NCBI RefSeq assembly: GCF_003399635.1
Contig: NZ_NBXB01000020.1
Location: forward strand, 1 to 64,000
Length of the DNA: 64,000 nucleotides
Direction of reading: 5' to 3'
From: Subtercola boreus
GTDB taxonomy: Bacteria; Actinomycetota; Actinomycetes; Actinomycetales; Microbacteriaceae
The notes under the pieces are model-generated. The model searched no databases and had not been told where the DNA came from. It saw nothing but the letters and a program-made list of their open reading frames with translations. The stretch's first letter is position 1, and each line of letters opens with the position of its first letter. This document shows, one piece after another, positions 35,312 through 51,579 of this stretch. Both the position numbers and the translations under genes were made by a program.

Positions 35312-36370
35312 TCAGCCTGCGGCAGAGATGGCGAGGAGACCGGCAACGCCTGCCAGATAGATCACCAGGACGGCGAGAGAATCGATGCCCATTCCGGCGA
35401 TCTTCTTCTGGGGCCTGAAAAGCAGCCCGACCGCGTAGACGAGGGTCAGGAGCACTCCGAGAGCTGACAGGTAGATGTCGCTCGCGTTCGCCGACGGCAA
35501 CACGGCCTTCCCGGAGATGAGGGTGGCGACGAAGAGCAGTACGGGCAGGAAAGCGTTTCCGCCGAAGATGTCGCTCATGGCGAGATTGTCGTCGCCCTGC
35601 CTGATGGACTGGATGCCTGTTGACAGCTCGGGAAGTGATGTTGCGAGGGCGAGAATGGTGGCGCCGAACAGGATTCCCGACAGCCCCAGCTGGCTGGAAG
35701 CGGCCTCGCCCGCCCGCTCGAGGACGACGCCCGCGACCAGGGTGCCAAGGGCTGCTACTCCGAAGATCACGGCGGCCTTGACTGTGCTCATCTTTGGTGG
35801 GGTGTGGCGGCGGTGACCGGATTGGTGCGGTGCGCCATCCGGAGCATTGCCGTTCTCGTGCCAGGGCAGTGTGGACCCTGCACGTTTCACAAGCAGCAGC
35901 CCGACGACCCACGCCAGAACGATGAGCAGGCCCTGGGGAGTGATGCCGGCGACGATGAGGCCGCTCGGTAGTTGGGTGCCGGCGATCACGATCCCGAGGA
36001 CTGCAACCACGACGAGGGCTTCGAGGACGATTGTGAGGGAGGCGGCCCGGTAGGTGAGGGGCTTGATACCCTTGCCTCGTTTGCCGAAGAGGTCGAGAAG
36101 GACCAGCACCACGGTCTGCAGTGCGATGCCGCCCAGGATATTGCCGACCGCCACCTCGATGTTCCCGTTGATCGCGGCGCTGACCGTGATCGCGATCTCG
36201 GGAAGATTGGTGGCGACCGCGAGCACGATCAGGCCGCCGAGGGCACTGCCGAGGTGCAACTTCTTGTCGAGCACGTCGGTTGTCTTCGACAGGTGGATGC
36301 CGGCGACCCAGACGACGGCTGCGGCCGCGGCGAAGATGACAACCAGCAACCAGAGGGGGAGCGCCTCCAT
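35312..36370 (-). CDS. Ca2+/cation antiporter (CaCA family)
   Basis: 352 residues from ATG 36370. Ten to eleven membrane helices with the two CaCA repeats: alpha-1 GGLIVLAVATNLPEIAITV...GNIEVAVGNILGGI and alpha-2 GATILALATSLPELSTGI...DNLAMSDIFGGNAF. Each keeps the Glu that binds the cation (NLPE, SLPE). A His-rich cytoplasmic loop (HENGNAPDGAPHQSGHRRHT, about residues 180-200) separates the halves. It exchanges Ca2+ or another divalent ion for H+ or Na+. It follows ctaD by 14 bases on the same strand and may be in its operon. Confidence 0.88.
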   Translation of the reverse strand: MEALPLWLLVVIFAAAAAVVWVAGIHLSKTTDVLDKKLHLGSALGGLIVLAVATNLPEIAITVSAAINGNIEVAVGNILGGIALQTVVLVLLDLFGKRGKGIKPLTYRAASLTIVLEALVVVAVLGIVIAGTQLPSGLIVAGITPQGLLIVLAWVVGLLLVKRAGSTLPWHENGNAPDGAPHQSGHRRHTPPKMSTVKAAVIFGVAALGTLVAGVVLERAGEAASSQLGLSGILFGATILALATSLPELSTGIQSIRQGDDNLAMSDIFGGNAFLPVLLFVATLISGKAVLPSANASDIYLSALGVLLTLVYAVGLLFRPQKKIAGMGIDSLAVLVIYLAGVAGLLAISAAG

Positions 36371-36384
36371 CAGCCACCGACTCT

Positions 36385-38082
36385 CTAACGGATCTTCTGG
36401 TGCGGAGCGTCCGGTGCGTCTGCAGCGGGGCCCAAACCAGTGGGCAGTCCGGCTTCGGGATGGTTCAGGTCGAAAGCAGGGGATTCCGAGCGGATGCGTG
36501 GGATGGTCGTGAAATTGTGTCGGGGTGGCGGGCAGGATGTCGCCCACTCCAAGGACCTGGCGTGACCCCAGGGGTCGTTCACCGTCACTCGCGGCGCCCG
36601 CCTGGCGGTGATGTACACGTTCAGGAAGAACGGGATCATTGACGACGCGAGCAGGAAAGCACCGACCGTCGAGATCTGGTTCATCCAGGTGAAACCGTCT
36701 GTCGGGGAGTACGACGCGTACCGGCGGGGCATGCCGATCACGCCCAGCCAGTGCTGGATGAGGAACGTGGTGTGGAAGCCGATGAACAGCAGCCAGAAGT
36801 GCCACTGGCCGAGTTTCTCGTTGAGCATCTTGCCGGTCCACTTGGGCCACCAGAAGTAGAAGCCCGAGAACATCGCGAACACCACGGTGCCGAACACCAC
36901 GTAGTGGAAGTGGGCGACGACGAAGTAGCTGTCGGAGACGTGGAAATCGAGCGGCGGCGACGCCAGGATGACACCCGTCAGACCACCGAAAGTGAAGGTG
37001 ATGAGAAAGCCGATCGCCCACATCATCGGCGTTTCGAAGGTGACAGATCCGCGCCACATCGTTCCGACCCAGTTGAAGATCTTCACCCCGGTGGGCACGG
37101 CGATGAGCATGGTCATGAGGGAGAAGAACGGCAGCAACACTGACCCGGTGACGTACATGTGGTGCGCCCACACCGTGACCGAGAGCGCGGCAATGGCGAT
37201 GGTGGCATAGACGAGGGTCTTGTATCCGAACAGGGGTTTGCGGCTGAATACCGGGAGGACTTCGGAGATGATCCCGAAGAAGGGCAACGCGATGATGTAG
37301 ACCTCCGGGTGGCCGAAGAACCAGAAGAGGTGTTGCCAGAGCAGGGCACCGCCGTTGGCCGGATCGTAGATGTGTGCACCGAACACCCGGTCGATGCCGA
37401 GCGCAGACAGCGCCGCCGCGAGTACGGGGAATGCCATCAGGATCAGGATCCCGGTGACCAGCGTGGTCCAGGTGAACAACGGCAACCGGAACATCGTCAT
37501 GCCGGGGGCGCGCATGGTGATGATGGTGGTGATGAAGTTCACGGCCCCGAGGATGGTGCCGAAACCGGAGAGCACGAGGCCGAAGACCCACAGGTTGCCG
37601 CCATCCCCGGGTGTGAAGGTTTGGCTGGAGAGTGGTGCGTAGGCGAACCAGCCGAAGGATGCGGCGCCCTGGGGGGTGAGGAACCCGGCGACGACGATCG
37701 CGCTGCCGAAGGTGTAGAGCCAGAACGCGAACGCGTTCAGTCGGGGGAACGCGACATCCGGTGCGCCGATCTGGAGCGGCATGAGCACGTTCGCGAATCC
37801 CGAGAACAGGGGAGTGGCGAACATCAGCAGCATGATCGTGCCGTGCATCGTGAACAGCTGGTTGTACTGGTCTTTCGTCGCCAACAGCTCACCACCCGGT
37901 TCGAAGAGCTGTGCCCGGATGACCAACGCCATCACCCCGCCGAAGCAGAAGTAGAGGAACGACTCGATCAGGTACATGTACCCGATCACCTTGTGGTCTG
38001 TGGAGGTCAGCCAGCTGACCAGCACGTTGCCTTTGCGTTTCGCCGAGCCACTGATCTCGACTCGTTCGGTGAAAGTGCTCAC
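36385..38082 (-). CDS. ctaD: Cytochrome c oxidase subunit I (orphan copy)
   Basis: 565 residues from GTG 38082, chosen because GGAAGGAC lies 6-13 bases upstream; an ATG at 38103 is possible. It is a complete haem-copper oxidase subunit I with twelve helices: [10 protein letters not shown] (haem a His), [10 protein letters not shown] (CuB His and cross-linked Tyr), WAHHMY (CuB His pair) and VVAHFHYV (haem a3 and a His). The K- and D-channel residues of A-type oxidases seem present. Subunits II and III, and haem-copper assembly genes, are not adjacent, so this is a second or alternative subunit I. It lies upstream of a cation antiporter and close to the copper block. Confidence 0.93.
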
Positions 38083-38190
38083 GTCGTTGTCCTTCCGGGA
38101 CATTGGTGCAGCGTTGACTCCTTCATACCCCTGAGTGCAGGTGAACCGATAGGGGTCTCAGGCCGACACTCCGCCCGCGGGTGCGCCGGG

Positions 38191-38670
38191 TCAGGCGGCG
38201 GGCTCTTGCAGTGCGTTGAGATCGGTTCTGACAGTGGTGCTGGCGCTCTGGATGATCGTGGCCCGCTTGTGGGAGACATGTGTTCCTGTTGAGCTCGAGA
38301 TCGCTCGGGCGAGGTCCGCGTCGAGTTGGTCGAGGTTGGTCAGGGCTGAACGGAAGTCCCCGTTGGCGGCCGGTCTGACGACGAGTTGAACGGCCCGCCG
38401 GAGACTCCGGGTGGTTGTCGGGTTGAGGTCTGGCGCGTCAGGGACCACGCCTGCAGCGAGGGCCAGCAGATCGGTCCGCAGTGGCTCGACCATCGAGGGA
38501 ACCGTGATGACCGGTGCCACCGTCGCACCGGCAGGGACGACGTACGAGACCAGCGCGATGGTGATCGCAATCGCGATGGCGATCAGAAAACAGAGGAGGC
38601 CGAAGCGTGCAGCGACGATCCCTCTGCCGGGCTGGAGGCTGGTTGTGGCGGGCATCATGCAATTCCTCAC
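38191..38670 (-). CDS. Small single-pass membrane protein
   Basis: 159 residues (ATG 38670; ATG 38655 also possible). One N-terminal membrane helix (FGLLCFLIAIAIAITIALVSYVV) is followed by an extracytoplasmic, mainly helical domain (LRTDLLALAAGVV..., TRSLRRAVQLVVRPAANGDFRSALTNLDQLDADLARAI). The repeating-helix pattern is like FIMAH domains but weak. It precedes ctaD by 108 bases on the same strand. No family assigned. Confidence 0.55.
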   Translation of the reverse strand: MRNCMMPATTSLQPGRGIVAARFGLLCFLIAIAIAITIALVSYVVPAGATVAPVITVPSMVEPLRTDLLALAAGVVPDAPDLNPTTTRSLRRAVQLVVRPAANGDFRSALTNLDQLDADLARAISSSTGTHVSHKRATIIQSASTTVRTDLNALQEPAA

Positions 38671-38920: not shown

Positions 38921-38950
38921 GAATTTACCATGAATGAGGGAGTGGCTGCC

Positions 38951-39427
38951 ATGGAGCAGGGCGCAATTTGGACAAATGCGTTGACGACCGAGTCGACACT
39001 CACTGCGTCAAGGGCGTTGCTGGGAATCGTCGCGCGATCCATCTCGAATGCGCTCAATGACGTGACCATGCCGCAGTTCCGGGTCCTCGTGGTTCTCAGC
39101 GGGTCCGGCCCGCTTCGGATGGGTGCGCTGGCTGAGAAGATGGGGGCCGTTCAGTCCACTTTCAGCCGGACGATTGACCGTATGGTCAAAGGTGGTTGGG
39201 TCGAGCGCGCCTCGAGCCCGGACAGCCGCCGTGAGGTGCTGATCTTTGCGACATCCCAGGGTCGTGCGCTGGTCGATGAGGTCACGGAACGTCGACGTGC
39301 CGAGCTCAGCCGGATTCTTTCCGCACTGAGCCCGGAAGAGCAGGCACAGTTGGCATCTGCGTTCGATGTTCTGGCACGAGTAGCAGGAGAGACTCCCGCA
39401 GAGGAACTGCTCATACTCGGTCTGTAG
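38951..39427 (+). CDS. MarR-family transcriptional regulator
   Basis: 158 residues from ATG 38951, preceded by GAGGGAG at 8 bases; the frame also allows ATG 38930. Winged helix: TMPQFRVLVVLSGSGPLRMGALAEKMGAVQSTFSRTIDRMVKGGWVERASSPDSRREVLIFATSQGRALV, a standard MarR recognition helix and wing. Ligand unknown; there is no reactive Cys in the N-terminus. Convergent with the end of the complex I-like operon, so it is not an obvious regulator of it. Confidence 0.85.
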   Translation: MEQGAIWTNALTTESTLTASRALLGIVARSISNALNDVTMPQFRVLVVLSGSGPLRMGALAEKMGAVQSTFSRTIDRMVKGGWVERASSPDSRREVLIFATSQGRALVDEVTERRRAELSRILSALSPEEQAQLASAFDVLARVAGETPAEELLILGL

Positions 39428-39637: not shown

Positions 39638-41032
39638 TCAGAGGAGTCCGATGCCGAGGGCGATGGGTCCGGCCACGATGACCGCGATCCCGAGAATGAC
39701 GGGCATGACTGATGGAGACTTCGGCGTCTGGGCGGCGGCGGGCGTGTCTGGGATGGTTGCGGGGGTTTGGAACGGGCTGATGAGGAGGCGAAGGTAGTAG
39801 ACGAGGCTCAGGACGGTGTTGGCGGCGGCGATGATGACCAGCCACGCCAGGCCGCCGCTCCAGGTTGCGGTGAAGACGAGGAGTTTTCCTGCGAATACGG
39901 CGGTCGGGGGTGTTCCGAGGAGGCTGAGGGAGCCCACGATGAGGGTTCCGGTGAGCCAGGGGTGTGATCTCGCGACGCCGGCCCAGTCGGTGAGATTTTT
40001 GCGGCGCGGGAGGCAGGCGACTGTGCCGAACACGGTCAGGTTGGTCAGTGCGTACAGCACGAGGTAGGTGAGGAGCGCCCCGGATGCTGTCGGGGTTGTG
40101 GTGATGACGGCCACTGGCATGAGGAGGTATCCGACTTGGCTGACGGTGGACCATCCGAGCAGGCGGCGGATGTTTGTTTGCGCGAGGGCGGCGAGATTTC
40201 CGACGGTCATGCTGAGTGCTGCGAGGACTGCGATGAGCAGTGGCAGGTCGATGCTTGACGGCGCCACAGGTACCAGTCGTGCGAGGGCGATGAGGGCGCC
40301 GAGTTTCGGGATGGTGGTGAGGAATGCGGCGATGGCGGGGCTGGAGGATTCGGCGGCGTCGGGGATCCAGAAGTGTCCGGGGACCCCGCCCGCTTTAAAC
40401 AGCAGCCCGATGATGACGGCGACGAACCCGGCCGCGATCGCGGCGGGCGGGGCGTGTTCGAGTCCGCGGGTGAGATCTGGGTAGCTGCTGGAGCTGCCGA
40501 GTGCGGTGAGGAGGGTGATTCCGGCGAGGAGGAGAACGCCGAACAGGGCGCCCATGAGGTAGGTCTTCAGGGTTGCTTCGGCGGCACGGGCTGTGCGGGA
40601 CAGCCCGATGAGCGCGTAGAGGGGGATGCTTGCGAGCAGGTATCCGGCCATGAGGACCAGAAGGTCCGTGGTGCCGGCGACGACGACCGTGCCGAGGGTC
40701 GCCAGCAGGAGGAGCGCGTATGTTTCGCTTTCCCGGGGGGTGCCGCTGAATTCGCTCCGGCCGATCAGGATCACTACCGCGGTTGAGAGTGGCACCAGTA
40801 GTCGGATCACAGTTGTGGGTGTGTCGATCGCGTAGGTGCGGGTGAAGATTTCTGTGGCGGGCTGGCCGAGGGGGATCAGGGCGGCGCTTGCGCTGGTGAG
40901 GAGTGCTCCGAGGGTGAACCAGCGGGTCAGGATTTGCCGGCGCCGGGGCAGGTAGCTGCCGGCGAGGAGGGTGATCACGGCGGCGGCGAGGAGGACGACT
41001 TCTGGGAGGAGCGCGGTGTAGTCCATCCGCAT
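39638..41032 (-). CDS. nuoN: NuoN-like antiporter-type subunit of the copper-linked complex
   Basis: 464 residues from ATG 41032 (GTG 41041 overlaps the nuoM stop as GTGA and is possible). Fourteen-helix antiporter-like protein. Conserved: GLLFKAGGVPGHFWIPDAAE (channel Lys), TTIPKLGAL (second Lys), NIRRLLGWSTVSQVGY and GTPPTAVFAGKLLVF (third Lys). In helix 5 the Glu of NuoN/NuoL/NuoM is missing: the helix reads LLVLMAGYLLASIPLYAL without an acid. Last gene of the operon. Proton-channel role is by homology. Confidence 0.85.
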   Translation of the reverse strand: MRMDYTALLPEVVLLAAAVITLLAGSYLPRRRQILTRWFTLGALLTSASAALIPLGQPATEIFTRTYAIDTPTTVIRLLVPLSTAVVILIGRSEFSGTPRESETYALLLLATLGTVVVAGTTDLLVLMAGYLLASIPLYALIGLSRTARAAEATLKTYLMGALFGVLLLAGITLLTALGSSSSYPDLTRGLEHAPPAAIAAGFVAVIIGLLFKAGGVPGHFWIPDAAESSSPAIAAFLTTIPKLGALIALARLVPVAPSSIDLPLLIAVLAALSMTVGNLAALAQTNIRRLLGWSTVSQVGYLLMPVAVITTTPTASGALLTYLVLYALTNLTVFGTVACLPRRKNLTDWAGVARSHPWLTGTLIVGSLSLLGTPPTAVFAGKLLVFTATWSGGLAWLVIIAAANTVLSLVYYLRLLISPFQTPATIPDTPAAAQTPKSPSVMPVILGIAVIVAGPIALGIGLL

Positions 41033-41037
41033 CGAGG

Positions 41038-42522
41038 TCACGGGGTGAGGCTTTCGACGACGATGCGGGCCGCGGGCTGGATCAGCGCCAGCAGGGGGCC
41101 GGGGAACACGCCGACGATCACCGAGAGTCCCATCAGGATGGCCAGGGGAATGGTTTCGTGGCGGCGGAGGTCGGCGAAGCCGGGGGAGAGGTTCTCGGTG
41201 GGGCCGGTGAAGATGCGTTGGAACGCGCGGAGGAGCAGGACGGCGGTGATGAGGATGCCGGGGAGGGCGAACAGGGCCCACCAGGTGGTACCGATGCTGC
41301 CGGTGAAGATCTGGAATTCGGCGATGAACCCGCTGAACCCGGGGAGTCCAAGGGAAGCGAATGAGGCGACGGCGAAGAATCCGGCGAACCGGGGTGCTGG
41401 GCGGGCAAGTCCGCCGTATTGGCGGAGGTCGTAGCTGCCGGTGCGGTCGTAGAACACGCCGGCCAGCAGAAACAGGGCACCCGTGATAAGTCCGTGGGAG
41501 ACCATCTGGGTGACCGCCCCGGTGACCGCGAGCTGTTGCGCCGCTGCGGTGTCGCTGCCGATGATCCCGGCGGCGCCGACGGCGAGGATCACGTAGCCCA
41601 TGTGGTTGATGGAGGTGAACGCGATCATTCTTTTCACATCGGTCTGCGCCAAAGCGACGAGTGCGCCGTAGAGGACGGAGACGAGGCCGAGGACGACGAT
41701 GACCCAGGCGTAGGAGCGCCACGCGTCGGGGAGCATCGGTATCGCGATACGGACGAACCCGTACGTTCCCATCTTCAACAGGACGCTGGCGAGGACCACG
41801 GAGCCGATCGTTGGGGCGTCGGTGTGCGCGGGAGGCAGCCAGGAGTGGAACGGGAATGTGGGCGTTTTGATGGCCAGGCCGACGACGATCGCGGCCAGGA
41901 CGAGGCCGGCTACCAGGGGGGTGCCGGTGAAGGCACCCGCCTGAGACAGGGCGACCATGTCGAAGGTGTGCGGGGTGGCGCCGAGGTACAGGCCGATGAA
42001 TCCCAGCAGTAGGGCGAGGGAGCCGAGGAAGGTGTAGAGGAAGAATTTCAGCGCCGACTGGCGGTGGTTGCCGTGTCCCCATCCGGCGATGATGAAGTAC
42101 ATCCCAACGATTGACAGGTCGAAGAAGACGAAGAACAGGATCAGGTCTTGGGCGGCGAACAACCCCAGGCAGGTGCTCTGCAGAAACAGGAACAGCGCCG
42201 CTTGTGGGCGCGGCCGGTCGATGGCCCGAACAGACCAGAGGGCGCAGACCAGGAAGATGATGCTGGTGAGCAGGATCAGCGGGACGGAGATCCCGTCGAC
42301 GCCGACGTGATAGCTGGAGCCGATGCCCGGCATCCATTCCCACCGCTGCTCGCCCCGAAGCGTGCGCCCGGTTTCTGGTTCGACGGTCAGCACAAGTGTG
42401 AGGAGCAGGTCCGCTCCGGCGGTTCCCACCCACACCCAGCGAATTATCGCGGCCGGTAGGCGGCGGGATGTCGCGAGGACGATTCCGATCACGACGGGAA
42501 GGAAGATGACAACACTGAGCAC
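41038..42522 (-). CDS. nuoM: NuoM-like antiporter-type subunit
   Basis: 494 residues. Closely NuoM-like throughout: YHVGVDGISVPLILLT, LILFFVFFDLSIVGMYFIIAGWG, LAIKTPTFPFHSWLPPAHTDAPT, ALAQTDVKRMIAFTSINHMGY and SLGLPGFSGFIAEF. The helix-5 channel Glu (E144 in E. coli) is Asp here (D135). The channel Lys (K219) and the following His (H226) are kept. It lies 5 bases after nuoL and overlaps the possible GTG start of nuoN. In complex I this subunit moves one proton per cycle; here the electron-transfer arm is lacking. Confidence 0.88.
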   Translation of the reverse strand: MLSVVIFLPVVIGIVLATSRRLPAAIIRWVWVGTAGADLLLTLVLTVEPETGRTLRGEQRWEWMPGIGSSYHVGVDGISVPLILLTSIIFLVCALWSVRAIDRPRPQAALFLFLQSTCLGLFAAQDLILFFVFFDLSIVGMYFIIAGWGHGNHRQSALKFFLYTFLGSLALLLGFIGLYLGATPHTFDMVALSQAGAFTGTPLVAGLVLAAIVVGLAIKTPTFPFHSWLPPAHTDAPTIGSVVLASVLLKMGTYGFVRIAIPMLPDAWRSYAWVIVVLGLVSVLYGALVALAQTDVKRMIAFTSINHMGYVILAVGAAGIIGSDTAAAQQLAVTGAVTQMVSHGLITGALFLLAGVFYDRTGSYDLRQYGGLARPAPRFAGFFAVASFASLGLPGFSGFIAEFQIFTGSIGTTWWALFALPGILITAVLLLRAFQRIFTGPTENLSPGFADLRRHETIPLAILMGLSVIVGVFPGPLLALIQPAARIVVESLTP

Positions 42523-42527
42523 GGCGG

Positions 42528-44453
42528 TTACCTCACAACAATCAGCAGAAGAACAGCGGCCACGGTGACGACTGCGGCGGCGGCGTAGTAGTCGGAGATC
42601 TTCCCGGTCTGGAGACGTCTGGCGAGTGTCCCTAATCCGAGCACCCCCGATGCCGCATGGTGAATGGCCCGGTCCAGGCGCTGATCGACTGTCTGCAGGG
42701 CGCCAGCGGTGCGGGTGAGTGCTCCTACGGTCCTGCCCACCCCCGCATCGAGGCTGTCATCGATTGTTTGCAGGGCGCCTGCGGTGCGGGTGAGTGCTCC
42801 GGCGGTCTTGTCCACTCCGGCGTCGAGGAGCTGATCGAACCGGGAGAGCGTGTCGGCCAGTCGGAGCGTTGGTGTTCCGATGACGGCAACGGCGGCGCGT
42901 TCGAGACCGAACCAGGTCAACGCCCCGGGGATGTGTGGGATCCCGCGCCAGTAGCTGAGCGCGGCGGTCACTACCGCGAGGGCCGCTGAGACCAGGAGCT
43001 CCGGGATGGTGCTTTCCGGTTCGCCGGTAGCGCCCAGAAGGGCCCGGAACGGTCCCGACAGGCCGGGGATCGCGGCCGCGCCGAGCACAACTGTTCCGGC
43101 ACTGAGGACGAGTATCGGTGCGAGGGCGCCTGCAGGAACGGTCCGGGTTCCTTTTTCTTCGGCATCCCACAGTCGGTTTTCGAAGCGCGCCCGTTCCCTC
43201 GGGTCGGGTTTTGCCCAGACGACGGCGATCATTTTCGCCGAGTACGCAGCCGATAACACTGCCCCGAGAAGGCCCGCCGCATAAAGGGCCGGGCTGGTCG
43301 CCAATGCTCCGGCTAGGACGTCGTCTTTGGTCCACCACAACGCGAACGGGGGCAGCCCGGCAAGTGACAGTGCGCCGGCGAGGAAGAGGAGCCCAAGGAG
43401 GGGCCATCGTCGGGCGACGCCTCGGAGGGCGCTGAGTTGTTTGGTGCCGGCGGCGGCCAACCAGGCCCCCGCCGCCAGGAAGAGGAGCGCCTTCGTGGCG
43501 GCGTGTCCGATGAGTTGCGCGGTGCCGCCGGCGGTCGAGCCGACTCCGGCCGCGAGAACGACGAACCCCAGTTGCGCTGCAGTGGACGCGGCGAGGAGCT
43601 GTTTGAGGTCTTTCTGCGCCAACGCGATCAATCCGAGAACGATCGTGGTCACAGCTCCGACCCATGCAGCAGTCGGTGCCGCCCACCCCGACGCGTGAAG
43701 GACAGGCTCGAGCCGGAGGAGCAGGTAGGCACCCATCGCGACCATCGCCGCTGAATGCAGCAGTGCACTGACGGGGCTGGGGCCGTCCATGGCCCGGGAC
43801 AGCCAGAAACTGAATGGTAGTTGCGCTGCTTTGCCAAGTCCCGCGACGAGAACACCGGCGGCGATCACATGAACCCAGGGGGCAGGGGCGTGCGAGAGGT
43901 CTGTGAGGTTCCAGGAGACGCCCGATGCGATGGCGGCTCCGGCGGCGGCGTACAGGCCAAGGTCCGCGGTGCGGGTGACGGTGAAGGCGACGAACCCGGA
44001 CGGTATGGTGCGGGGCTGCTGCCAATGGAACCCGATCAGGGCGTAGGAGGTGGCGCCCATGATCTCCCATCCGGCAAGGAGTGACGGTAACGACGTCGAG
44101 GACACGGTGACGACGACCGCGGCGGCGAAGAGGAGCATCAGGCCGTGGAACCGGGCTGCCGGTTTCGTTTTTTCCGCCACAGCGAACATGAGCACCAAAA
44201 GGGTGACCGCGGTGACCGTGGGGAGAAGGACCGCCGTCAGCCCGTCCACGTGAAGCGTCGCTCCTGTCGAAGAGATGAACCCGGCAGTGAGGGTGGGCCG
44301 GGTGGTGAACGCGGTGATCGCGGCGCCCAGGATGATCGTGGCGATCCCGAGTGAGACCCACGGTGCGGCCCGGTCCGCTCTCCGGCCAATGACCAGGAGG
44401 ATCCCGCCGCCTGCTGCGGGAAGGAACGCCAGGGTGACGAGGAGGACGCTCAT
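42528..44453 (-). CDS. nuoL: NuoL-like antiporter-type subunit with duplicated C-terminal segment
   Basis: 641 residues. The channel residues are intact: E130 in SLLAGWEIMGATSYALIGF, K208 in GLGKAAQLPFSFWLSRAMDGPSPVSALLHSAAMV (with H233). A C-terminal extension takes the place of the lateral helix and contains two near-identical 25-residue repeats (core GALTRTAGALQT) with amphipathic character, then a final membrane helix (AAAAVVTVAAVLLLIVV). Its start overlaps the nuoK stop by 4 bases. The usual long lateral helix HL of NuoL is not clearly present. Confidence 0.87.
   Translation of the reverse strand: MSVLLVTLAFLPAAGGGILLVIGRRADRAAPWVSLGIATIILGAAITAFTTRPTLTAGFISSTGATLHVDGLTAVLLPTVTAVTLLVLMFAVAEKTKPAARFHGLMLLFAAAVVVTVSSTSLPSLLAGWEIMGATSYALIGFHWQQPRTIPSGFVAFTVTRTADLGLYAAAGAAIASGVSWNLTDLSHAPAPWVHVIAAGVLVAGLGKAAQLPFSFWLSRAMDGPSPVSALLHSAAMVAMGAYLLLRLEPVLHASGWAAPTAAWVGAVTTIVLGLIALAQKDLKQLLAASTAAQLGFVVLAAGVGSTAGGTAQLIGHAATKALLFLAAGAWLAAAGTKQLSALRGVARRWPLLGLLFLAGALSLAGLPPFALWWTKDDVLAGALATSPALYAAGLLGAVLSAAYSAKMIAVVWAKPDPRERARFENRLWDAEEKGTRTVPAGALAPILVLSAGTVVLGAAAIPGLSGPFRALLGATGEPESTIPELLVSAALAVVTAALSYWRGIPHIPGALTWFGLERAAVAVIGTPTLRLADTLSRFDQLLDAGVDKTAGALTRTAGALQTIDDSLDAGVGRTVGALTRTAGALQTVDQRLDRAIHHAASGVLGLGTLARRLQTGKISDYYAAAAVVTVAAVLLLIVVR
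42694..42800 (-). repeat. 75-base direct repeat within nuoL
   Basis: TGCAGGGCGCCAGCGGTGCG at 42694 and TGCAGGGCGCCTGCGGTGCG at 42769 begin two 32-base near-identical blocks 75 bases (25 codons) apart. They encode the GALTRTAGALQT repeats in the NuoL C-terminal extension. Confidence 0.7.
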
Positions 44454-44752
44454 CCGTGCAAGTCCGTCGCACTATCGGTCATGTCGGATTTCCGTGACCG
44501 GTGTACGACAGTCGCGACAGCGAATCCCATCGCCATTTCCACCGTCATTGCCGCCAGCACCACAAGGAGAACGGTTTGTCCGTCTGGAGTAGGGGATAAA
44601 AACCACCACAGGGCGCCGCCTGCGAGGAGGACTCCGTTGATCATCAGTTCGATGCCCATCATGACCATCACGACCACCTGTTGGGACAACGCCCCGTACA
44701 GTCCGACAGCGAACAGGGCTGCGGCGACGAGGAGAACAAGGTGCAGTGTCAT
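44450..44752 (-). CDS. nuoK: NuoK-like subunit
   Basis: 100 residues, the normal length. Three helices with both conserved buried acids: E35 in VVVMVMMGIELMINGV and E72 in LAAMTVEMAMGFAVA. It also ends with the typical basic His-Arg stretch. ATG 44752 overlaps the nuoJ stop (ATGA); its own stop overlaps the nuoL start. Part of the proton-translocating E-channel region with NuoA, NuoJ and NuoH in complex I. Confidence 0.88.
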   Translation of the reverse strand: MTLHLVLLVAAALFAVGLYGALSQQVVVMVMMGIELMINGVLLAGGALWWFLSPTPDGQTVLLVVLAAMTVEMAMGFAVATVVHRSRKSDMTDSATDLHG

Positions 44753-45330
44753 CAGCCGAGGCCTCCTGGGATGGGGTCATCGGGGTCGGGATGCCCGTCA
44801 ACATCTCTGCGGTCGAGGGCGTCGCCGTAGCGGTCGTATCGCCCTTTCGGGTTCGCGAGAACGAGGGCGGCGATGATTGTGGCGAACAGGACCGGGCTGA
44901 TGGTCAACATGACAAGCATTTTCGATCCCATGATCGCGTCGCCCAGGGACTTCGTCAGATCGTCTGCTGGAGATCCAGTCCGGTTGGGCCACGGGATGAA
45001 CACGATCGCTGCGGCCAGAACGACGAAGACGAGGACGGCGAGGATTACGGAGCGGCGTTTGTTGTGGGTCATGTCCATCGGCATCAGGGCCGGGTTCATG
45101 CCCATGAACATGACCATGAACACGGCCATGACGGCCATCTCCATCAGCATCATCAGGATCGTGATCACCCCGATGTAGTCCAGGTGAAGCATCACGATCA
45201 TCGCGCCGACCGCGACGAACGACACCGCGAGAGCGTACGTGGCGCGCGCCATCGAGTTGACCACGAACACGGCGATACCCCCAGCGACAGCCAGGGCGGT
45301 GAGGACCCAGAACAGGATGGCGGTGATCAC
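44752..45330 (-). CDS. nuoJ: NuoJ-like subunit, unusually methionine-rich
   Basis: 192 residues from GTG 45330, which overlaps the nuoH stop (GTGA). NuoJ features: FWVLTALAVAGGIAVFVVNSMARATYALAVSFVAVGAMIVMLHLDYIGVITIL, including the helix-3 region that forms a pi-bulge in complex I. The part after helix 3 has 12 Met in 28 residues (MMLMEMAVM...FMGMNPALMPMDM) and then a His (MTHNK). Such Met clusters are typical of Cu(I) handling proteins; in ordinary NuoJ this part is not so Met-rich. Two more helices follow. Confidence 0.82.
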   Translation of the reverse strand: MITAILFWVLTALAVAGGIAVFVVNSMARATYALAVSFVAVGAMIVMLHLDYIGVITILMMLMEMAVMAVFMVMFMGMNPALMPMDMTHNKRRSVILAVLVFVVLAAAIVFIPWPNRTGSPADDLTKSLGDAIMGSKMLVMLTISPVLFATIIAALVLANPKGRYDRYGDALDRRDVDGHPDPDDPIPGGLG

Positions 45331-46262
45331 AGGGCGCCGCCGTTCACGCCGACGATGACCGCGACCACCGCGAGCTGAAGCAACGTCAAGGGAACCACGA
45401 TCACCCACGCGATCTCCGCCAACCGGTCCGGCCGGACCGTTGGAAACAACCGCCGTACAGTGAGTAGCCCGGCTAGGACGAGGCAGGTCTTCAGCACAAC
45501 CCAGACCCCCGCCGGGAGGATCGGTCCGGCTCCTCCGCCGAAGAACAGCGGGACGGAGAATCCCGCTCCGGCGACCAGAACGGCGTAGCGGCCCCCGGTG
45601 ACGAGGAGCCGGTCGATGCCGCTGAGTTCCAGGAGGACGCCACCGGTGATGTCGGCGCCGAGGGCAGTTTGGAACGGACCCCACGAGGCGAATGCGACCA
45701 CTGATGCGGCGAAAACGAGGAACGCGACAGGCATCCACACCACGAACCAGACGTGCGTCTGGGCTGTTTGGACGGTGAGCAACCTCAGGCTCCCGGCGCC
45801 GATCGCGGGCGCGGTAAGGGCAAACATGAGCGGGATCTCGTACGCGAGCGCTTGGCTCAGGAACCGGTACCCGCCGATAAGTGACCAGCTGCTGTTGGCG
45901 CCCCAGCCGAGCAGCCACCACAACGCCCACAGCAGCACGTCCATGGCGTTGAACCACACCACCCCGACGGGAAGATCGGCGAACGTGAACCCGCCGAGGG
46001 GAATGACGAGAACTTTCAGGACCGCTGCGATCCCGATCCCGGCGGAGGAGATCCGCCACAGCAGCGAGTCAGCGCCGGGCAGGGTCCGCCGTTGCTGGCG
46101 TAACAGCCGCGCCGTCTCCTGGAACGGGACCGCGAACCCTGTTCGGAGCTGTGCGCCGTTTGTTCGGGCGTCGAGGACGCCGTTGGCCGAAGCGGTCACC
46201 GCGGAGAGGACGGCAACGACGACCGGGACGAGAACGACCAACACGAAGGCCCCGTCACTCAT
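45327..46262 (-). CDS. nuoH: NuoH-like membrane anchor subunit
   Basis: 311 residues from ATG 46262. About eight helices. Recognisable NuoH signatures are PFQETARLLRQQ (amphipathic entry), GWGANSSWSLIGGYRFLSQALAYEIPLMFAL (consensus GWxSxxKYAxLGxxRxxAQxxSYEIP) and WGPFQTALGADITGGVLLELSGIDRLL. The last corresponds to the acidic loop by the quinone site (PFDxxEAExExxxGxxxEYSG), but most of its acids are lost. Overlaps the B/D-like gene by 8 bases. Predicted to seat the B/D-like protein on the membrane; quinone binding is doubtful. Confidence 0.82.
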   Translation of the reverse strand: MSDGAFVLVVLVPVVVAVLSAVTASANGVLDARTNGAQLRTGFAVPFQETARLLRQQRRTLPGADSLLWRISSAGIGIAAVLKVLVIPLGGFTFADLPVGVVWFNAMDVLLWALWWLLGWGANSSWSLIGGYRFLSQALAYEIPLMFALTAPAIGAGSLRLLTVQTAQTHVWFVVWMPVAFLVFAASVVAFASWGPFQTALGADITGGVLLELSGIDRLLVTGGRYAVLVAGAGFSVPLFFGGGAGPILPAGVWVVLKTCLVLAGLLTVRRLFPTVRPDRLAEIAWVIVVPLTLLQLAVVAVIVGVNGGAL

Positions 46263-47427
46263 GGGCGCCGCCCGGGATCACGTAGGTGCTCTGGGTCCCC
46301 AGCGCGGCGACGATCAGGCGGGTTGCGGCGATCTCCTGTCCGAGGACCGCCAGACGGATGTCCGCCGGCGTCGGTGCGGGCACGGAACCCGAACGATGCC
46401 CCCAAGGCGCGGCGGCTGGGTTTGAAAGAATGGCCAGCGCGGTGTCGAGCCATTCCAGCAGGCGGTCCAGGACTGTGGTCCCTCCGACGGTGGTGATGTT
46501 CTTCAGAGACCAGCGAAGGGTGCGGGAACGCCGCACCTGGGCTGTCACCCGGCGAAGGCGGGATGTCGCATGCGTGTTGGCGCTTTTGAGGAGGGAATTC
46601 CGGAGGCCGGCGAGTTCGTGGGCGGCGGGTTCCCACCCGGCCACAGTGAGCAGTCGGGCTGCGTCGTCCAGCAGCACGGCGCATTCCGGTAACTGTTCGC
46701 TGTGTCCGGTGCCGAGGAGGCGTTCTGCCCGGGCATCGGCGATGACATCACCGTGCAGGGTGCAGTGCAGGACGAGATCCGCGGGCCACCCCGGCAGCAG
46801 GGGACCAAGCGACAGGTGCGTGACATCCATCTCGAGCCCATCCCGGTCCTCGCCGCCCCCGGCGAGGGGAATCCCGGCAGGACCGGACATATCCATGTCC
46901 ATTCCCATGTCCATGCCCATTCCCATGTCGCCATCGGAGCTCATATCCATTGCCATGTCGGTGTCGGCCATGGAGGAAGACTCACTCGGCGACGTGTCAC
47001 TGCCGGCTCCAGCGTCATCGGACGTCTCGGTGTGCCCGGTCGGCGTATCGGCGGGAAGTGGGCCGCGGTTGTCATCCAGGCGGAGGCGCCTGGTCCGGGC
47101 ATCGGCGTGTTGGAGGGTTTCGTCTTGCAGGGCGACACGGATCGTGTGGAAAGCTTCGTCAAGGGACTGCTCGGTGTCTACACGTACCCGGTAGCGGGGA
47201 GACGGGATCTGCTCCCAGACCGCGTCAATCAACTCCTGAAGATCCGGGCCGGGTGATCCGCAGATCAGGAGAACATCGGCATCTGCCGGGCCTGTCGCTT
47301 CCACCCACCCGAAAGAAGCGATGGCCGCCTGGGCGTTCATCCGCAACAGTCTCCGCCCGGGCGTTTCAACGAGGAACACGTGCACTCGTGTGGTTGCCAG
47401 TTGGGCAATGATGCGGGCTACACCCAC
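46255..47427 (-). CDS. NuoB/NuoD-like fusion without Fe-S ligands, Met/Asp-rich linker
   Basis: 390 residues from GTG 47427, with GGGAG upstream, overlapping nuoA by 10 bases. N-terminal ~110 residues resemble NuoB: after VHVFLVETPGRR come ADADVLLICGSPGPDLQELID then PSPRYRVRV, as in NuoB's ADVMIVxG...PxPRxVIxxG. None of the four cysteines that bind cluster N2 remains. A Met/Asp/Ser linker follows (around 46876-46972, 11 Met in 30 residues). The C-terminal part recalls a degenerate NuoD/hydrogenase large subunit (LSLGPLLPGWPADLVLHCTL). It cannot carry out complex I chemistry. The NuoD assignment is tentative; the NuoB one is better. Confidence 0.65.
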   Translation of the reverse strand: MGVARIIAQLATTRVHVFLVETPGRRLLRMNAQAAIASFGWVEATGPADADVLLICGSPGPDLQELIDAVWEQIPSPRYRVRVDTEQSLDEAFHTIRVALQDETLQHADARTRRLRLDDNRGPLPADTPTGHTETSDDAGAGSDTSPSESSSMADTDMAMDMSSDGDMGMGMDMGMDMDMSGPAGIPLAGGGEDRDGLEMDVTHLSLGPLLPGWPADLVLHCTLHGDVIADARAERLLGTGHSEQLPECAVLLDDAARLLTVAGWEPAAHELAGLRNSLLKSANTHATSRLRRVTAQVRRSRTLRWSLKNITTVGGTTVLDRLLEWLDTALAILSNPAAAPWGHRSGSVPAPTPADIRLAVLGQEIAATRLIVAALGTQSTYVIPGGAHE

Positions 47428-47768
47428 CGGAGAGCTCCCTCTCGCCAAGCCCAGATGACACCGGCGATGAGGACGGCGAGGAAAACGAACATCTCGACGA
47501 TCGCCTCTGCCCCTTTTTCAGCGACGATCACCGCCCATGGGTACATGAAAAGCATCTCGACATCGAACGCCAAAAACAGCAGCGTCAACGGGTACCAGCG
47601 GGCGTGGAAACGAGAAAGTGCATGTTCTTCAGGCTGCCAGCCGGACTGGAACGGCAGGACCTCCAAGACCTCTTCACCGACCATGACAGCTCGGCCGAAC
47701 AGGTACAAGCCTCCGATCCCGGCAGCACAGGCTCCAAGGACGATGAACACGCTCAGGTAGGGCGACAT
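47418..47768 (-). CDS. nuoA: NuoA-like subunit, first gene of the complex I-like operon
   Basis: 116 residues from ATG 47768 with a strong AAGGAGG ribosome-binding site. Three helices. The NuoA signature FDVEMLFMYPWAV keeps D69 and E71, and RFHARWYPLTLLFLAF is typical. The switch-loop motif PYECG is PFQSG here, so the loop Cys is missing. A CsoR-type palindrome lies 75-92 bases upstream. In complex I, NuoA links the membrane arm with NuoH, J and K near the quinone chamber. Confidence 0.87.
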   Translation of the reverse strand: MSPYLSVFIVLGACAAGIGGLYLFGRAVMVGEEVLEVLPFQSGWQPEEHALSRFHARWYPLTLLFLAFDVEMLFMYPWAVIVAEKGAEAIVEMFVFLAVLIAGVIWAWREGALRWV

Positions 47769-47842
47769 GGTGCCTCCTTGGTCGGGACTTCGCATGACGG
47801 GCCAGCACTCATTCCGGCACACTCTATCCGCCCCACTAGTTA

Positions 47843-47860
47843 TATACCCTAGGGGGGTAC
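47843..47860 (-). promoter_or_regulatory. CsoR-type operator before the nuo-like operon
   Basis: TATACCCTAGGGGGGTAC matches the copper-repressor palindrome (ATACCC-n-GGGGGTAT type) with one imperfect arm. It overlaps an AT-rich TATATAA on the leftward strand that could be the -10 element of the nuoA promoter. Copper-inducible control by the adjacent CsoR is inferred. Confidence 0.7.
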
Positions 47861-48064
47861 CTGACAAGCGGGATGGCCAGCTGCGCAAAATTCAGGCCCT
47901 GGCGCAGTCAGCGGAAAGGTCGACGACGAAAAGTACCGCATCGACATCATGAGGCACAACGGTGTGTGGCCGCTTTCGCGTAGTGGTTTCTGACCAGCCA
48001 GCTCAGCTCCGTTGTCAGAGATCGGGTGGCCTTGACTTGCCTTCCATTTCATGGCTTACTTGAA

Positions 48065-48081
48065 ATACCCCTAGGGGGTAT
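48065..48081 (+). promoter_or_regulatory. CsoR operator of csoR-copZ-copA
   Basis: ATACCCCTAGGGGGTAT is an almost perfect palindrome with 7-base arms and the exact G/C tracts of known CsoR sites, 12 bases before the csoR start. With the site at 47843 it places CsoR-type operators on both arms of this divergent region. The 200 bases between them contain no gene. Confidence 0.82.
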
Positions 48082-48093
48082 GAATGGTGAGGT

Positions 48094-48381
48094 GTGGTGG
48101 TGGTCGGTTACGCGTCTAATAAGGATGCTCTTCTGAAGCGGTTGAGTCGTGCGGAGGGGCAGGTGCGTGGTATTGCCCGGATGGTGGAGGAGGATACGTA
48201 CTGCATCGATATTCTGACGCAGGTGTCGGCGGCGACGAAGGCGCTCGAGACTGTTGCGTTGTCGCTTCTGGATGATCACCTCAAGCACTGTGTTGCTGAG
48301 GCAAGTGCTGAGGGTGGGCCTGTGGCGGAGGAGAAGCTTCGTGAAGCGTCCGCCGCGATCGCCCGTCTTGTCCGTTCCTAG
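48094..48381 (+). CDS. csoR: Copper-sensing repressor CsoR
   Basis: 95 residues; GTG at 48094, 48097 or 48100 are all possible (the last is best spaced from GGTGAGG). An all-helical DUF156 protein with RLSRAEGQVRGIARMVEEDTYCIDILTQ and LLDDHLKHCV. The Cu(I) triad is C37, H62, C66 (numbered from 48094), as in CsoR and unlike the formaldehyde or nickel relatives. Cu(I) releases it from the palindromes at 48065 and 47843. Confidence 0.92.
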   Translation: MVVVGYASNKDALLKRLSRAEGQVRGIARMVEEDTYCIDILTQVSAATKALETVALSLLDDHLKHCVAEASAEGGPVAEEKLREASAAIARLVRS

Positions 48382-48413: not shown

Positions 48414-48740
48414 ATGTCTGAGTCGAATTTGAATGCCGATCTGGGTCTGACCGACAACAATGGTGGGTGCTCCTGTGGTCATATGGAGCACAATGCCGCA
48501 CCGGATACTGCGGGTGCGGACGTGGTCCGGGCGCACTATCTGGTTTCGGGGATGACGTGCTCTCACTGTGTTGCCAGTGTGACGGAAGAGCTCAGCGCCG
48601 TTCCCGGGGTGGACAGCGTCAGTGTTGCCCTGAACGTGGGTGGAGTATCGACGGTGATGGTTGTGAGCTCCGCCCCGGTTCCGGTTGGTGAGGTTCGTGC
48701 CGCGATTGCCGAGGCCGGCTATGAAATGGTCGCAGGCTAG
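48414..48740 (+). CDS. copZ: CopZ-like copper chaperone with metal-binding N-terminal tail
   Basis: 108 residues from ATG 48414. A heavy-metal-associated domain covers residues 39-108 with Cu(I) motif GMTCSHC (C49, C52). A ~38-residue extension precedes it and has a second possible site, CSCGHMEH (C19, C21, H23, M24, H26). It should pass Cu(I) to the CopA N-terminal domain. Between csoR and copA, 2 bases before copA. Confidence 0.9.
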
Positions 48741-48742
48741 GT

Positions 48743-50986
48743 ATGACCATGACAGATGTGAACCTCGATATCGGGGGTATGACGTGTGCCTCCTGTGCGA
48801 CGCGGATTGAGCGGAAACTCAATCGCATCGAAGGTGTCACCGCGTCAGTCAATTACGCGACCGAGAAAGCGCGGGTGCAAACGGCCGGCGTCGAGACTGC
48901 TGATCTGATTGCAGCAGTCGAGGCCGCCGGGTACACCGCCGCGCTACCTGCCCCGGTTCCCGTGACGGCCCCGGCGGATGGTGAGCCGGTGGATGCCGAG
49001 TTGTTGGGTCTTCGGCGGCGGCTGCTTGTCTCTGCGGCGTTGGCTGTGCCGGTCGTGGTGCTGTCGATGGTCCCGGTTCTTCAGTTCACGAACTGGCAGT
49101 GGTTTGCTCTGATGCTTGCGGCCCCGGTTGTGGTGTGGGGGGCGTGGCCCTTCCATCGTGCTGCGGTGGTGAACGCCCGGCACGGTGCCGCGACGATGGA
49201 CACGCTCATCAGTGTCGGCGTGATTGCAGCGTTCGGGTGGTCCTTGTACGCACTGTTCTTCGGTCACGCCGGGGAACCTGGGATGCGGATGAGTTTCCAG
49301 GTGACGGGTACGGCCGGGAACGGAACGTCTGAGCTGTATCTGGAGGTCGCATCTGCGGTCACCGTTTTCATCCTCGCCGGTCGGTACATCGAGGCGCGCA
49401 CGAAGAAACAGTCGGGTGCTGCGTTGAAGGCGCTTCTTGCGTTGGGCGCGAAGGATGCCACACGCGAACGCGCGGGCGTCGAGGAGCTCGTGCCCGTGGG
49501 TTCGCTGCTTCCGGGGGACAGGATCGTTGTCCGGCCGGGGGAGAAGATCGCAGCCGACGGGCTGATCGTCGAGGGCAACTCCGCCGTGGACGCGAGCATG
49601 CTGACAGGCGAGTCGGTCCCTGTCGAGGTCCATTCGGGCGATCGGGTCGTGGGCGCGACGATCAATGTCGGCGGGCGGCTTTTGGTCGAGGTGACCCGGG
49701 TCGGCGCGGACACGGAACTTGCCCGAATGGGCCGGTTGGTGGAAGAGGCGCAGAGCGGCAAAGCCCAGGCGCAGCGCCTCGCCGACCGGGTCTCTGCCGT
49801 GTTCGTTCCTGTCGTCATCGCCCTCGCACTCATCGCATTCGCTGGCTGGCTTCTCATCGGCGGGTCGGTGGAGACCGCGTTCGCTGCCGGGGTGGCGACG
49901 CTGATCATCGCGTGCCCGTGCGCTCTGGGTCTTGCGACCCCGACTGCGTTGCTGGTCGGCACCGGGCGCGGATCCCAGTTGGGCATCCTCATCCGCGGCC
50001 CCCAGGTTCTCGAGCAGACCCGCACGGTCGACACCATCGTGCTCGACAAGACAGGTACCATCACCACCGGGAAAATGACGGTCGCTACTGTCGAGGTGGC
50101 CGCCGGGACCTCCCCGGACGAGCTCGTCCGGTATGCGGCTGCCGCAGAGGAAGGCTCCGAGCATCCCATCGGACGCGCGATCGTCGCGCACAGCACGTCG
50201 CACCCGTCTGATCGGGCGAGCGTGGAAGCGTTCAAGGGGCATCCCGGGCACGGTGTGCAAGCCATCGTCGATGGCCGCCTCGTCGTCGTCGGCCAGCCGG
50301 CCTGGCTCTCCGACTCATGGTCGATCCCGACACCTCCCGAGCTTCTTTCGGTGATCGGGGCGTCCGAGTCTGCTGGCGTGACTGTCATGGCGGTCGGCTG
50401 GGACGGGGTGTTCCGCGGGATCATCAGCGTCGGGGACACCGTCAAATCCTCCAGCGCCGACGCTGTCGCAGAGTTTGTGGCACTCGGGCTTCGCCCGGTT
50501 CTTCTGACCGGGGACAACGCGGGGGCCGCTCACGCTGTCGCCGTGCAGGTCGGAATCAGTGAGGTCCACGCCAGCACCACCCCGACAGGCAAGCTCGCTC
50601 TGATCAGGTCGCTGCAGGAGGCGGGCAGGGTCGTTGCGATGGTCGGTGACGGCGTCAACGATGCTGCCGCGTTGGCTGCTGCTGACCTGGGGATCGCCAT
50701 GGGTACCGGGACCGACAGTGCGATCGCGGCCAGCGACATCACCATCGTCAGCGGCAACCTGACCGGCGTCGCCGACGCCATCCGCCTGTCCAGGCGCACC
50801 CTCGGCACGATCAAGGCGAACCTTTTCTGGGCGTTCGCGTACAACGTCGCAGCGATCCCGATCGCGATGCTCGGTCTCCTGAACCCGTTGTTCGCAGGCG
50901 CCGCGATGGCATTCTCGTCGGTGTTCGTCGTCACGAACAGTCTCCGGCTGAGGAGCTTCCGGCCGGCCACCCGGGAACACCGATGA
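48743..50986 (+). CDS. copA: Cu(I)-exporting P1B-type ATPase CopA
   Basis: 747 residues. One N-terminal HMA domain (GMTCASC, C15 and C18), eight helices and all catalytic motifs: TGESVPVEV (actuator), [16 protein letters not shown] (CPC at 391-393, Cu(I) pathway), DKTGT (phosphorylated D435), EEGSEHPIG (HP motif) and [11 protein letters not shown]. It pumps Cu(I) out of the cytoplasm. The next start overlaps its stop (ATGA). Confidence 0.95.
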
Positions 50987-51507
50987 CCCCGGCCGCGCGG
51001 ACCCAGCCGAACACCACACTGGTGAGCCTCGGACGGACCCGCGCCCGAGTGTTGGGGGCGAGCACCCTCGGGCGGACGGTGCTCCTCCTGGCTGTGGTTG
51101 GCGCGGTCGTTCTTGGGCTCCTCGCGATGCATACCCTGCAAACCGGGATGGGTAACCACAGCGCCCCCATGCACTCGGCCAGTGCGATGAGTGACACTGT
51201 GCACCCGGGCGGTGACATGGTCCACACCACCGACCTGGCGACAGATGCCGACATGGTGGGCGCTTCACATGAGCACGCCACCTCCTCGGAGTGTTCAGGG
51301 AGGTGTGACCCGGAGCACACGATGGCCGGCATGATCTGCGTGCTCGCGCTTCTGCTCGCCGGCCTTCTCCTCGCCGCGTTCAGGCCTACGAGCACCTACA
51401 CCACGGCGCCCGTGAAGCCTGCCCTGCAGCAGCTCGCCGACGTCGAAGCCTCCAGGCCAGGACCTGCCCCACCAGATCTTCACGTTCTCTCCATTTCGAG
51501 AACCTGA
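50983..51507 (+). CDS. DUF6153-type membrane protein, His/Met-rich exterior loop
   Basis: 174 residues from ATG 50983, coupled to copA. Two helices ([21 protein letters not shown] and [17 protein letters not shown]) flank a ~75-residue external loop rich in His, Met and paired Cys ([35 protein letters not shown]). The DUF6153 family frequently accompanies copper genes in actinobacteria; a periplasm-side copper-binding role is inferred, not shown. Confidence 0.75.
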
Positions 51508-51579
51508 TTGCGTCCGCCCGCACCACGGGTACTTCGCGCACTCAATTTCTCACTTTTTAATGAAATGGATACCAAACAG

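Follow-up and report, generated by a model that had tools for sequence, protein, structure and literature searches.

Known Complex I-Like Operons and the Subtercola Cluster

Salinispora was described as carrying a seven-gene "second partial NDH-1 operon", nuoAHJKLMN, which has patchy relatives across Actinobacteria, with Proteobacteria next in the tree, and was read as a marine adaptation (Penn and Jensen, 2012; PMC3314556). The same interpretation was repeated in a Kocuria paper of 2018 (PMC6002675), the operon being taken to pump protons or sodium for marine life. In Marinobacter atlanticus, nuoADHJKL was found inside a copper-resistance operon and co-expressed with the copper genes, and energy from copper redox chemistry was suggested (Eddie et al., 2021; PMC8233155). 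Here, we analyze a cluster of eight overlapping genes, nuoA, BD, nuoH, J, K, L, M, and N, at positions 39638–47768 (minus strand) of a 64,000-nucleotide stretch of the Subtercola boreus contig NZ_NBXB01000020.1, referred to as the window. BD is a fused NuoB/NuoD remnant. With a rough probability of 0.58, we propose that the products form an eight-subunit, redox-free membrane complex derived from complex I (NDH-1), which acts as a proton-driven Cu(I) exporter under the control of CsoR or CueR.

The Salinispora and Kocuria operons share with the window cluster the seven recognized genes and a patchy actinobacterial spread, and they probably belong to the same family, judging from gene list and distribution; excerpts of the two papers describe no copper link, methionine ladder or loss of redox sites. 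The Marinobacter operon likewise places complex I-like genes among co-expressed copper genes, but it concerns a single strain, nuoMN were reported missing, and copper redox energy rather than transport was proposed (PMC8233155). An earlier note on this DNA had stated that no system of this composition was described. This statement fails, because the operon had already been recorded as "partial NDH-1" and, in one case, next to copper genes. Although the operon was thus not wholly unnoticed, the methionine conduit and the family-wide copper link are new relative to the open-licence literature searched. None of that literature was found to describe the methionine ladder, the lost redox and quinone sites, such a copper transporter or the family-wide copper link, and no paper was found that joins csoR or "methionine-rich" with nuo; the paper on the Mycobacterium avium plasmid pMAH135 leaves its copy of the cluster unmentioned.

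The cluster resembles complex I in encoding A, H, J, K, L, M, and N in the usual order, in keeping most proton-path residues and in retaining remnants of the NuoB and NuoD folds. It differs in lacking C, E, F, G, I and the ligands of cluster N2, in the replacement of quinone-chamber residues, and in the addition of a methionine ladder, metal-binding inserts and copper-type regulation. The nearest functional analogy is provided by the Mrp-type multisubunit Na+/H+ antiporters, redox-free proton/cation machines with NuoL/M/N-type subunits; however, the cluster lacks the Mrp gene set (MrpA–G), keeps NuoA, NuoH, J, K and the NuoB/D remnant, and its substrate is probably Cu(I). The exporters CusCBA and CopA resemble it in the proposed removal of Cu(I), and CopA adjoins the cluster here, but their folds, an RND trimer and a P-type ATPase, are unrelated to complex I. 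A methionine pathway is known in CusA.

Gene Content and Absence of a Redox Arm

Pfam and NCBIfam models identified homologues of all seven membrane-arm subunits, and together with the predicted folds of BD they agree with the earlier reading of eight overlapping genes on one strand. The order runs from the nuoA-like gene (47418–47768; PF00507, 4.9e-25) through BD (46255–47427) to nuoH (45327–46262; PF00146, 3.6e-42), nuoJ (44752–45330; PF00499, 4e-13) and nuoK (44450–44752; PF00420, 1.5e-12). Three subunits with a Proton_antipo_M domain follow, for which the best models are NuoL (42528–44453; PF00361, 4.3e-47), NuoM (41038–42522; TIGR01972 over its cut-off) and NuoN (39638–41041; PF00361, 3.8e-47).

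As the earlier note had claimed, no NuoC, E, F, G or I gene lies within 39638–47768. That note had also considered that the missing subunits might be encoded elsewhere and assemble with the module. In the genome (3.85 Mb, 99.97% complete; all genome-wide statements rest on family searches), the NuoF (PF01512), NuoD (PF00346) and NuoB (PF01058) families have no match, which rules this out for B, D, and F; C, E, G, and I had no genome-wide search of their own. A single NuoH is present in the entire genome. With no NuoB, NuoD or NuoF family member and one NuoH, the organism has no ordinary complex I which the module could join. The suggestion that the module is driven by, or drives, something other than the missing arm is consistent with these results and with the largely intact membrane proton machinery, the mechanism itself being a proposal.

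Residues Lost, Kept and Gained

Residues were compared across 65–66 metal-associated sequences per subunit and are given in E. coli numbering. In NuoH, the quinone-chamber residues E36, R37, Q44, R46, E71, D213, E218, and E241 are replaced, and R291 is lost in the group near the window sequence and retained in the far groups; the window protein keeps E157 and E228. The proton path, in contrast, is largely retained. NuoL conserves E144, R175, K229, H254, H338, K342, and K399 in 66/66 sequences, with D178 as the exception, and the window protein has the complete set. K265 of NuoM is found in 66/66 and K234 and E407 in 65, whereas E144 is often Asp, as it is in the window, where the three other residues are kept. 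K247 and K395 of NuoN occur in all sequences, and the window protein also keeps K217 and has lost E133. The antiporter pattern of a TM5 glutamate with lysine or glutamate in TM7, TM8, and TM12 (TM, transmembrane helix) is therefore complete in NuoL, partly altered by E144D in NuoM and without E133 in NuoN. E36 of NuoK is invariant (66/66), E72 is present in 64 sequences and Asp in two, and E81 of NuoA is found in 65/65; the acidic DxE motif of NuoA is kept in the window. The NuoL-like protein bears a long C-terminal extension; there, where the lateral helix is expected, LDAGVDKTAGALTRTAGALQTIDDS and LDAGVGRTVGALTRTAGALQTVDQR form a tandem duplication.

The gained residues are predominantly methionines. 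NuoJ has acquired M58, M59, M63, M66, M70, M74, M91, and M93, as well as E62, in all sequences examined, and the same holds for M30, M33, and M69 of NuoK and for M82 and M85 of NuoA. In the window, those of NuoK stand beside E36 and E72 (VVMVMMGIELM and AMTVEMAMGF) and those of NuoA lie in FDVEMLFM. The predicted TM3 of the window NuoJ spans residues 51–76, and M59, M63, M66, M70, and M74 share one face of this helix, forming a ladder which is followed by a Met/His-rich loop; ladder and loop together read LMMxMEMAxMxxxMxMFMGMNPAxLMPMxMxH. The corresponding helix of ordinary actinobacterial NuoJ reads LVQVLVYVGAVVVLVLFALML, and NuoJ sequences of the ordinary type from the same taxonomic order lack methionine at the ladder positions. 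By the positive-inside rule, the MNPxxLMPMxMxHxKRR loop after TM3 would be cytoplasmic and adjoin BD. An effect of base composition was rejected as the source of the methionine richness: the NuoL, M, and N proteins encoded in these operons show no such enrichment, and the gained methionines occupy fixed positions. The ladder lends strong, if indirect, support to proton-coupled Cu(I) movement, one of the two functions that the earlier note had offered, and stops short of direct proof of transport.

Since NuoL, M, and N are homologues of Mrp-type antiporter subunits with conserved proton residues, copper might only gate or regulate a complex which moves H+ and Na+. This explanation takes in the older view of a partial NDH-1 that serves marine adaptation (Penn and Jensen, 2012; Kocuria, 2018), and excerpts of both papers tie the operon to sea water (PMC3314556, PMC6002675). 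However, the family includes many nonmarine members (Micromonospora, Modestobacter, Arthrobacter FB24, clinical M. avium), the ladder crosses the membrane instead of forming one regulatory site, and the recurrent neighbors are copper genes. A copper-gated H+/Na+ antiporter is thus unlikely.

The NuoB/NuoD Remnant

The family libraries (Pfam and NCBIfam) give no confident name to BD and only weak NuoB matches by sequence. Its AlphaFold model (pLDDT 81) shows two domains predicted with confidence and, between them, a disordered linker. The N-terminal domain has a NuoB/NDUFS7-like fold according to the best Foldseek matches, which are modest (E 0.002 at best). The C-terminal domain is a truncated NuoD/49-kDa fold, residues 200–384 superposing on NuoD/49 kDa of mycobacterial complex I with a VIA-align Z of 14.1 over 183 residues. 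The modest Foldseek values are offset by the concordance of the NuoB and NuoD results, with which the BD homologue of Rubrobacter, scoring over the Complex1_49kDa cut-off, is also in line. Fold and homologue together rule out that BD is an unrelated protein.

The family alignment of BD contains no invariant cysteine and no Cys-Cys motif, and it is consequently very unlikely that the protein holds cluster N2. In place of Fe-S ligands, the linker is rich in potential metal ligands. The Met-rich linker of the window protein reads MADTDMAMDMSSDGDMGMGMDMGMDMDMS, and nearly all of approximately 40 loci have MDHGDMDHGDMDHG or similar stretches of the MDHGDMDHG or MDMDM type. The linker of the Rubrobacter BD carries two HMBD heavy-metal-binding repeats (PF19335), and the motif, read by eye, is also found in BD of Rhodobacterales, with one copy in Sulfitobacter and five in Thioclava.

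Putative copper sites at the former position of N2 also invite a redox explanation, in which Cu(I)/Cu(II) in the BD insert would pass electrons to quinone or another acceptor and drive proton pumping, making the complex a cuprous oxidase or cupric reductase form of complex I. Copper-redox energy was proposed by the Marinobacter authors (Eddie et al., 2021; PMC8233155), and multicopper oxidases often adjoin the cluster. On the other hand, Fe-S ligands are absent, the quinone-entry residues of NuoH are replaced, no partner oxidoreductase gene is common to all loci, and a transmembrane methionine ladder suits the passage of ions better than that of electrons. We regard such a copper redox machine as improbable, and the copper-triggered redox change which the earlier note had suggested as an alternative is disfavored by the lack of N2 ligands and the loss of quinone residues.

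Copper Regulation and Neighborhood

The cluster stands back to back with a divergent plus-strand gene series, csoR-copZ-copA-DUF6153-copM, in which Pfam and NCBIfam confirm the csoR-copZ-copA genes reported earlier. It begins with a copper-sensing CsoR/RicR-type repressor gene (48094–48381; PF02583, 1.5e-30; the best NCBIfam model is RicR, below cut-off), the only CsoR family (PF02583) gene in the genome. It is followed by genes for a CopZ-like HMA metallochaperone (48414–48740; PF00403, 3.1e-14), a Cu(I)-type P1B ATPase, CopA (48743–50986; TIGR01511 over cut-off), a DUF6153 protein (50983–51507; PF19650, 2.3e-13) and a CopM/DUF305 copper metallochaperone (51508–52200; CopM model NF049983 over cut-off; PF03713, 4.9e-48). 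The CsoR-type motif TACCCCCNNNGGGTA has two matches in 3.85 Mb and none as a reversed control. Both lie at this locus, TACCCCCCTAGGGTA upstream of nuoA (47845–47859) and TACCCCCTAGGGGTA upstream of csoR (48066–48080); the palindrome noted before nuoA is thus present and is one of a pair. With a palindrome at the promoter and an adjacent csoR, the locus qualifies as a putative CsoR regulon. A scan of the nuoA/csoR intergenic region for sigma-70 promoters and terminators found nothing.

Association with copper genes extends across the family. Profiles for CsoR, CopA, multicopper oxidase and DUF305 detected at least one copper gene near the cluster in 30/59 loci, as opposed to none of 40 control stretches of 20 kb drawn at random from nine carrier genomes and one relative (p = 3e-9), and in 23/52 when eight Rubrobacter-type loci are counted once (p = 1e-7). 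These combined figures are somewhat favorable, because the multicopper oxidase and DUF305 profiles were picked for recurring near the cluster. The CsoR profile was fixed beforehand by the earlier note; alone, it matches near the cluster in 15/59 loci vs. 0/40 controls (p = 2e-4), or 8/52 after collapsing (p = 0.008), the loci being interrelated. The linkage to csoR which that note had looked for in relatives is therefore conserved in part of them only. csoR and/or copA are linked to the cluster in Rubrobacter, Flexivirga, Pseudonocardia, Curtobacterium and others, and in Rubrobacter copA-csoR-copZ-nuoA all point in the same direction. In two Pseudomonadota, Roseivivax and Acuticoccus, csoR is replaced by cueR, which is accompanied near the cluster by genes for a multicopper oxidase and a P1B ATPase. 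Overall, the link to copper is strong, and the function of the complex is very probably copper-related and probably metal transport.

A transmembrane ladder is compatible with either direction of transport, and the complex could instead import copper or supply it to cuproenzymes such as a neighboring multicopper oxidase or the cytochrome aa3 oxidase, whose subunit I gene lies nearby (36385–38103). Derepression through CsoR under copper excess points to export, however, as do the co-occurrence of the exporter CopA, metal-resistance plasmids with merB, ars or CusA genes, and the cytoplasmic metal-binding inserts; an importer or supplier appears quite unlikely. The exporter might also serve mainly Ag(I) or several soft metals. 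Methionine and HMBD sites accept Ag(I) in addition to Cu(I), and some of the plasmid islands carry other metal genes, but CsoR, CueR, CopZ, multicopper oxidase and CopM are components of copper systems, which makes a system mainly for other metals very unlikely.

Several further features of these neighborhoods were observed. Upstream of nuoA on Arthrobacter FB24 plasmid 1 (L163:1931–6823) are genes for a sulfocyanin-like copper protein, DUF305, an F510_1955-family protein and a multicopper oxidase. On M. avium pMAH135 (L162, plasmid positions 8626–38098), the cluster is accompanied by genes for a P1B ATPase and an HMA protein. Near the cluster, a DUF6153 gene stands beside a DUF305 gene both in the window (50983–51507, plus strand) and on a Pseudonocardia alni plasmid (L173:14961–15386), and the DUF6153 protein is possibly a further copper-system component. 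Downstream of nuoN, the window contains a small gene (38191–38670) and a divergent MarR-type gene (38930–39427), then on the minus strand the gene for subunit I of the actinobacterial aa3 cytochrome oxidase, a copper enzyme (36385–38103), and a Na/Ca exchanger-family gene (35312–36370).

Distribution and Phylogeny

The order A-BD-H-J-K-L-M-N recurs in 60-odd loci of Actinomycetota and of Pseudomonadota plasmids. A genome scan for NuoH returned 40 actinobacterial loci, with identical gene order wherever the contig is long enough. The NuoJ profile matches 52/396 genomes of the phylum (approximately 36 strongly) and 14/299 of the window's family; the cluster is absent from the 11 congeners examined. 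Actinobacterial plasmid carriers include Mycobacterium avium, M. paragordonae, Arthrobacter, Gordonia, Curtobacterium, Pseudonocardia and Rubrobacter, and further plasmid carriers are Halomonas, Roseivivax, Thioclava, Sulfitobacter and Acuticoccus. The G+C content of the window is approximately 0.67–0.70 to the left of about 24 kb and 0.61–0.67 to its right; the lower G+C content and the absence from the congeners may fit acquired DNA.

In a NuoM tree, in which the ordinary NuoM sequences number just five, the metal-associated sequences group in a single clade (98/95) that takes in a BD-less sister pair, A-H-J-K-L-M-N, on Rhodopseudomonas (L168:7425–14783) and Methylobacterium (L169:7602–14930) plasmids. 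The NuoJ of this sister group has a different TM3 and a long His/Met-rich insert in the loop that follows it. Pseudomonadota are nested among Actinomycetota, which suggests horizontal transfer. The patchy, often plasmid-borne occurrence could alternatively reflect a decaying complex I remnant carried along with copper islands. Residues invariant across two phyla, intact reading frames in the window, the uniform gene order and the single clade render this extremely unlikely.

Proposed Mechanism

Export of Cu(I) is the simplest reading because the proton machine is largely retained, the redox arm is gone, the ladder and the cytoplasmic metal-binding inserts are present, and the regulators respond to copper excess. 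From these features, we infer assembly as a single complex, Cu(I) as the substrate, outward movement and coupling to protons. CsoR would be inactivated by copper, while CueR would act as an activator in Pseudomonadota; we propose that the nuo operon is accordingly made together with CopZ and CopA under copper excess. The Met/His/Asp-rich or HMBD insert of BD and the MNPxxLMPMxMxH loop of NuoJ would then collect Cu(I) in the cytoplasm, at the place where complex I binds quinone. The ion may pass along the ladder M59-M63-M66-M70-M74 of NuoJ, between NuoA, NuoJ, NuoK, and NuoH, powered by inward proton flow through NuoL, M, and N. This would correspond to complex I in the direction which consumes proton motive force, with metal movement as the substitute for electron transfer. 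On the outer side, the metal would be handed to multicopper oxidase and CopM/DUF305 proteins.

Several observations weigh against this reading. E157 of NuoH is lost in most far members. Furthermore, E133 of NuoN is lost throughout and K217 is Glu in 11 sequences, so that not all three antiporter channels need be active. The different TM3 of NuoJ in the BD-less group indicates that the full ladder is not the sole design. A CsoR box before nuoA common to all relatives was not found; the strict palindrome occurs in only 4 of approximately 43 class-level loci, so that different regulators must operate in the rest. By the profiles used, roughly half of the 20-kb loci lack a nearby copper gene, even though the other loci rule out the csoR linkage as a local accident. 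Finally, export rather than import is deduced from regulation and neighbors, and methionine ladders can bind Ag(I) too.

Significance

How quinone chemistry drives distant proton pumps is a central open question of complex I. If the proposal is true, a relative with similar proton machinery and a redox-free load would reveal what the coupling region really needs, and coupling could be studied with an ion gradient in place of electrons. At somewhat better than even odds, the family represents a widespread, mobile class of heavy-metal pumps in Actinomycetota and Pseudomonadota, derived from complex I by deletion of the redox arm, in which NuoA, H, J, and K form a Met-lined Cu(I) channel and metal translocation replaces electron transfer. 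Clinical M. avium and its relatives carry the cluster on plasmids, annotated as NADH-quinone oxidoreductase. If true, many such annotations would have to be corrected, as NADH and quinone are both unlikely to take part, and the cluster would constitute a new kind of copper-resistance system, borne on plasmids in soil, marine and mycobacterial species.

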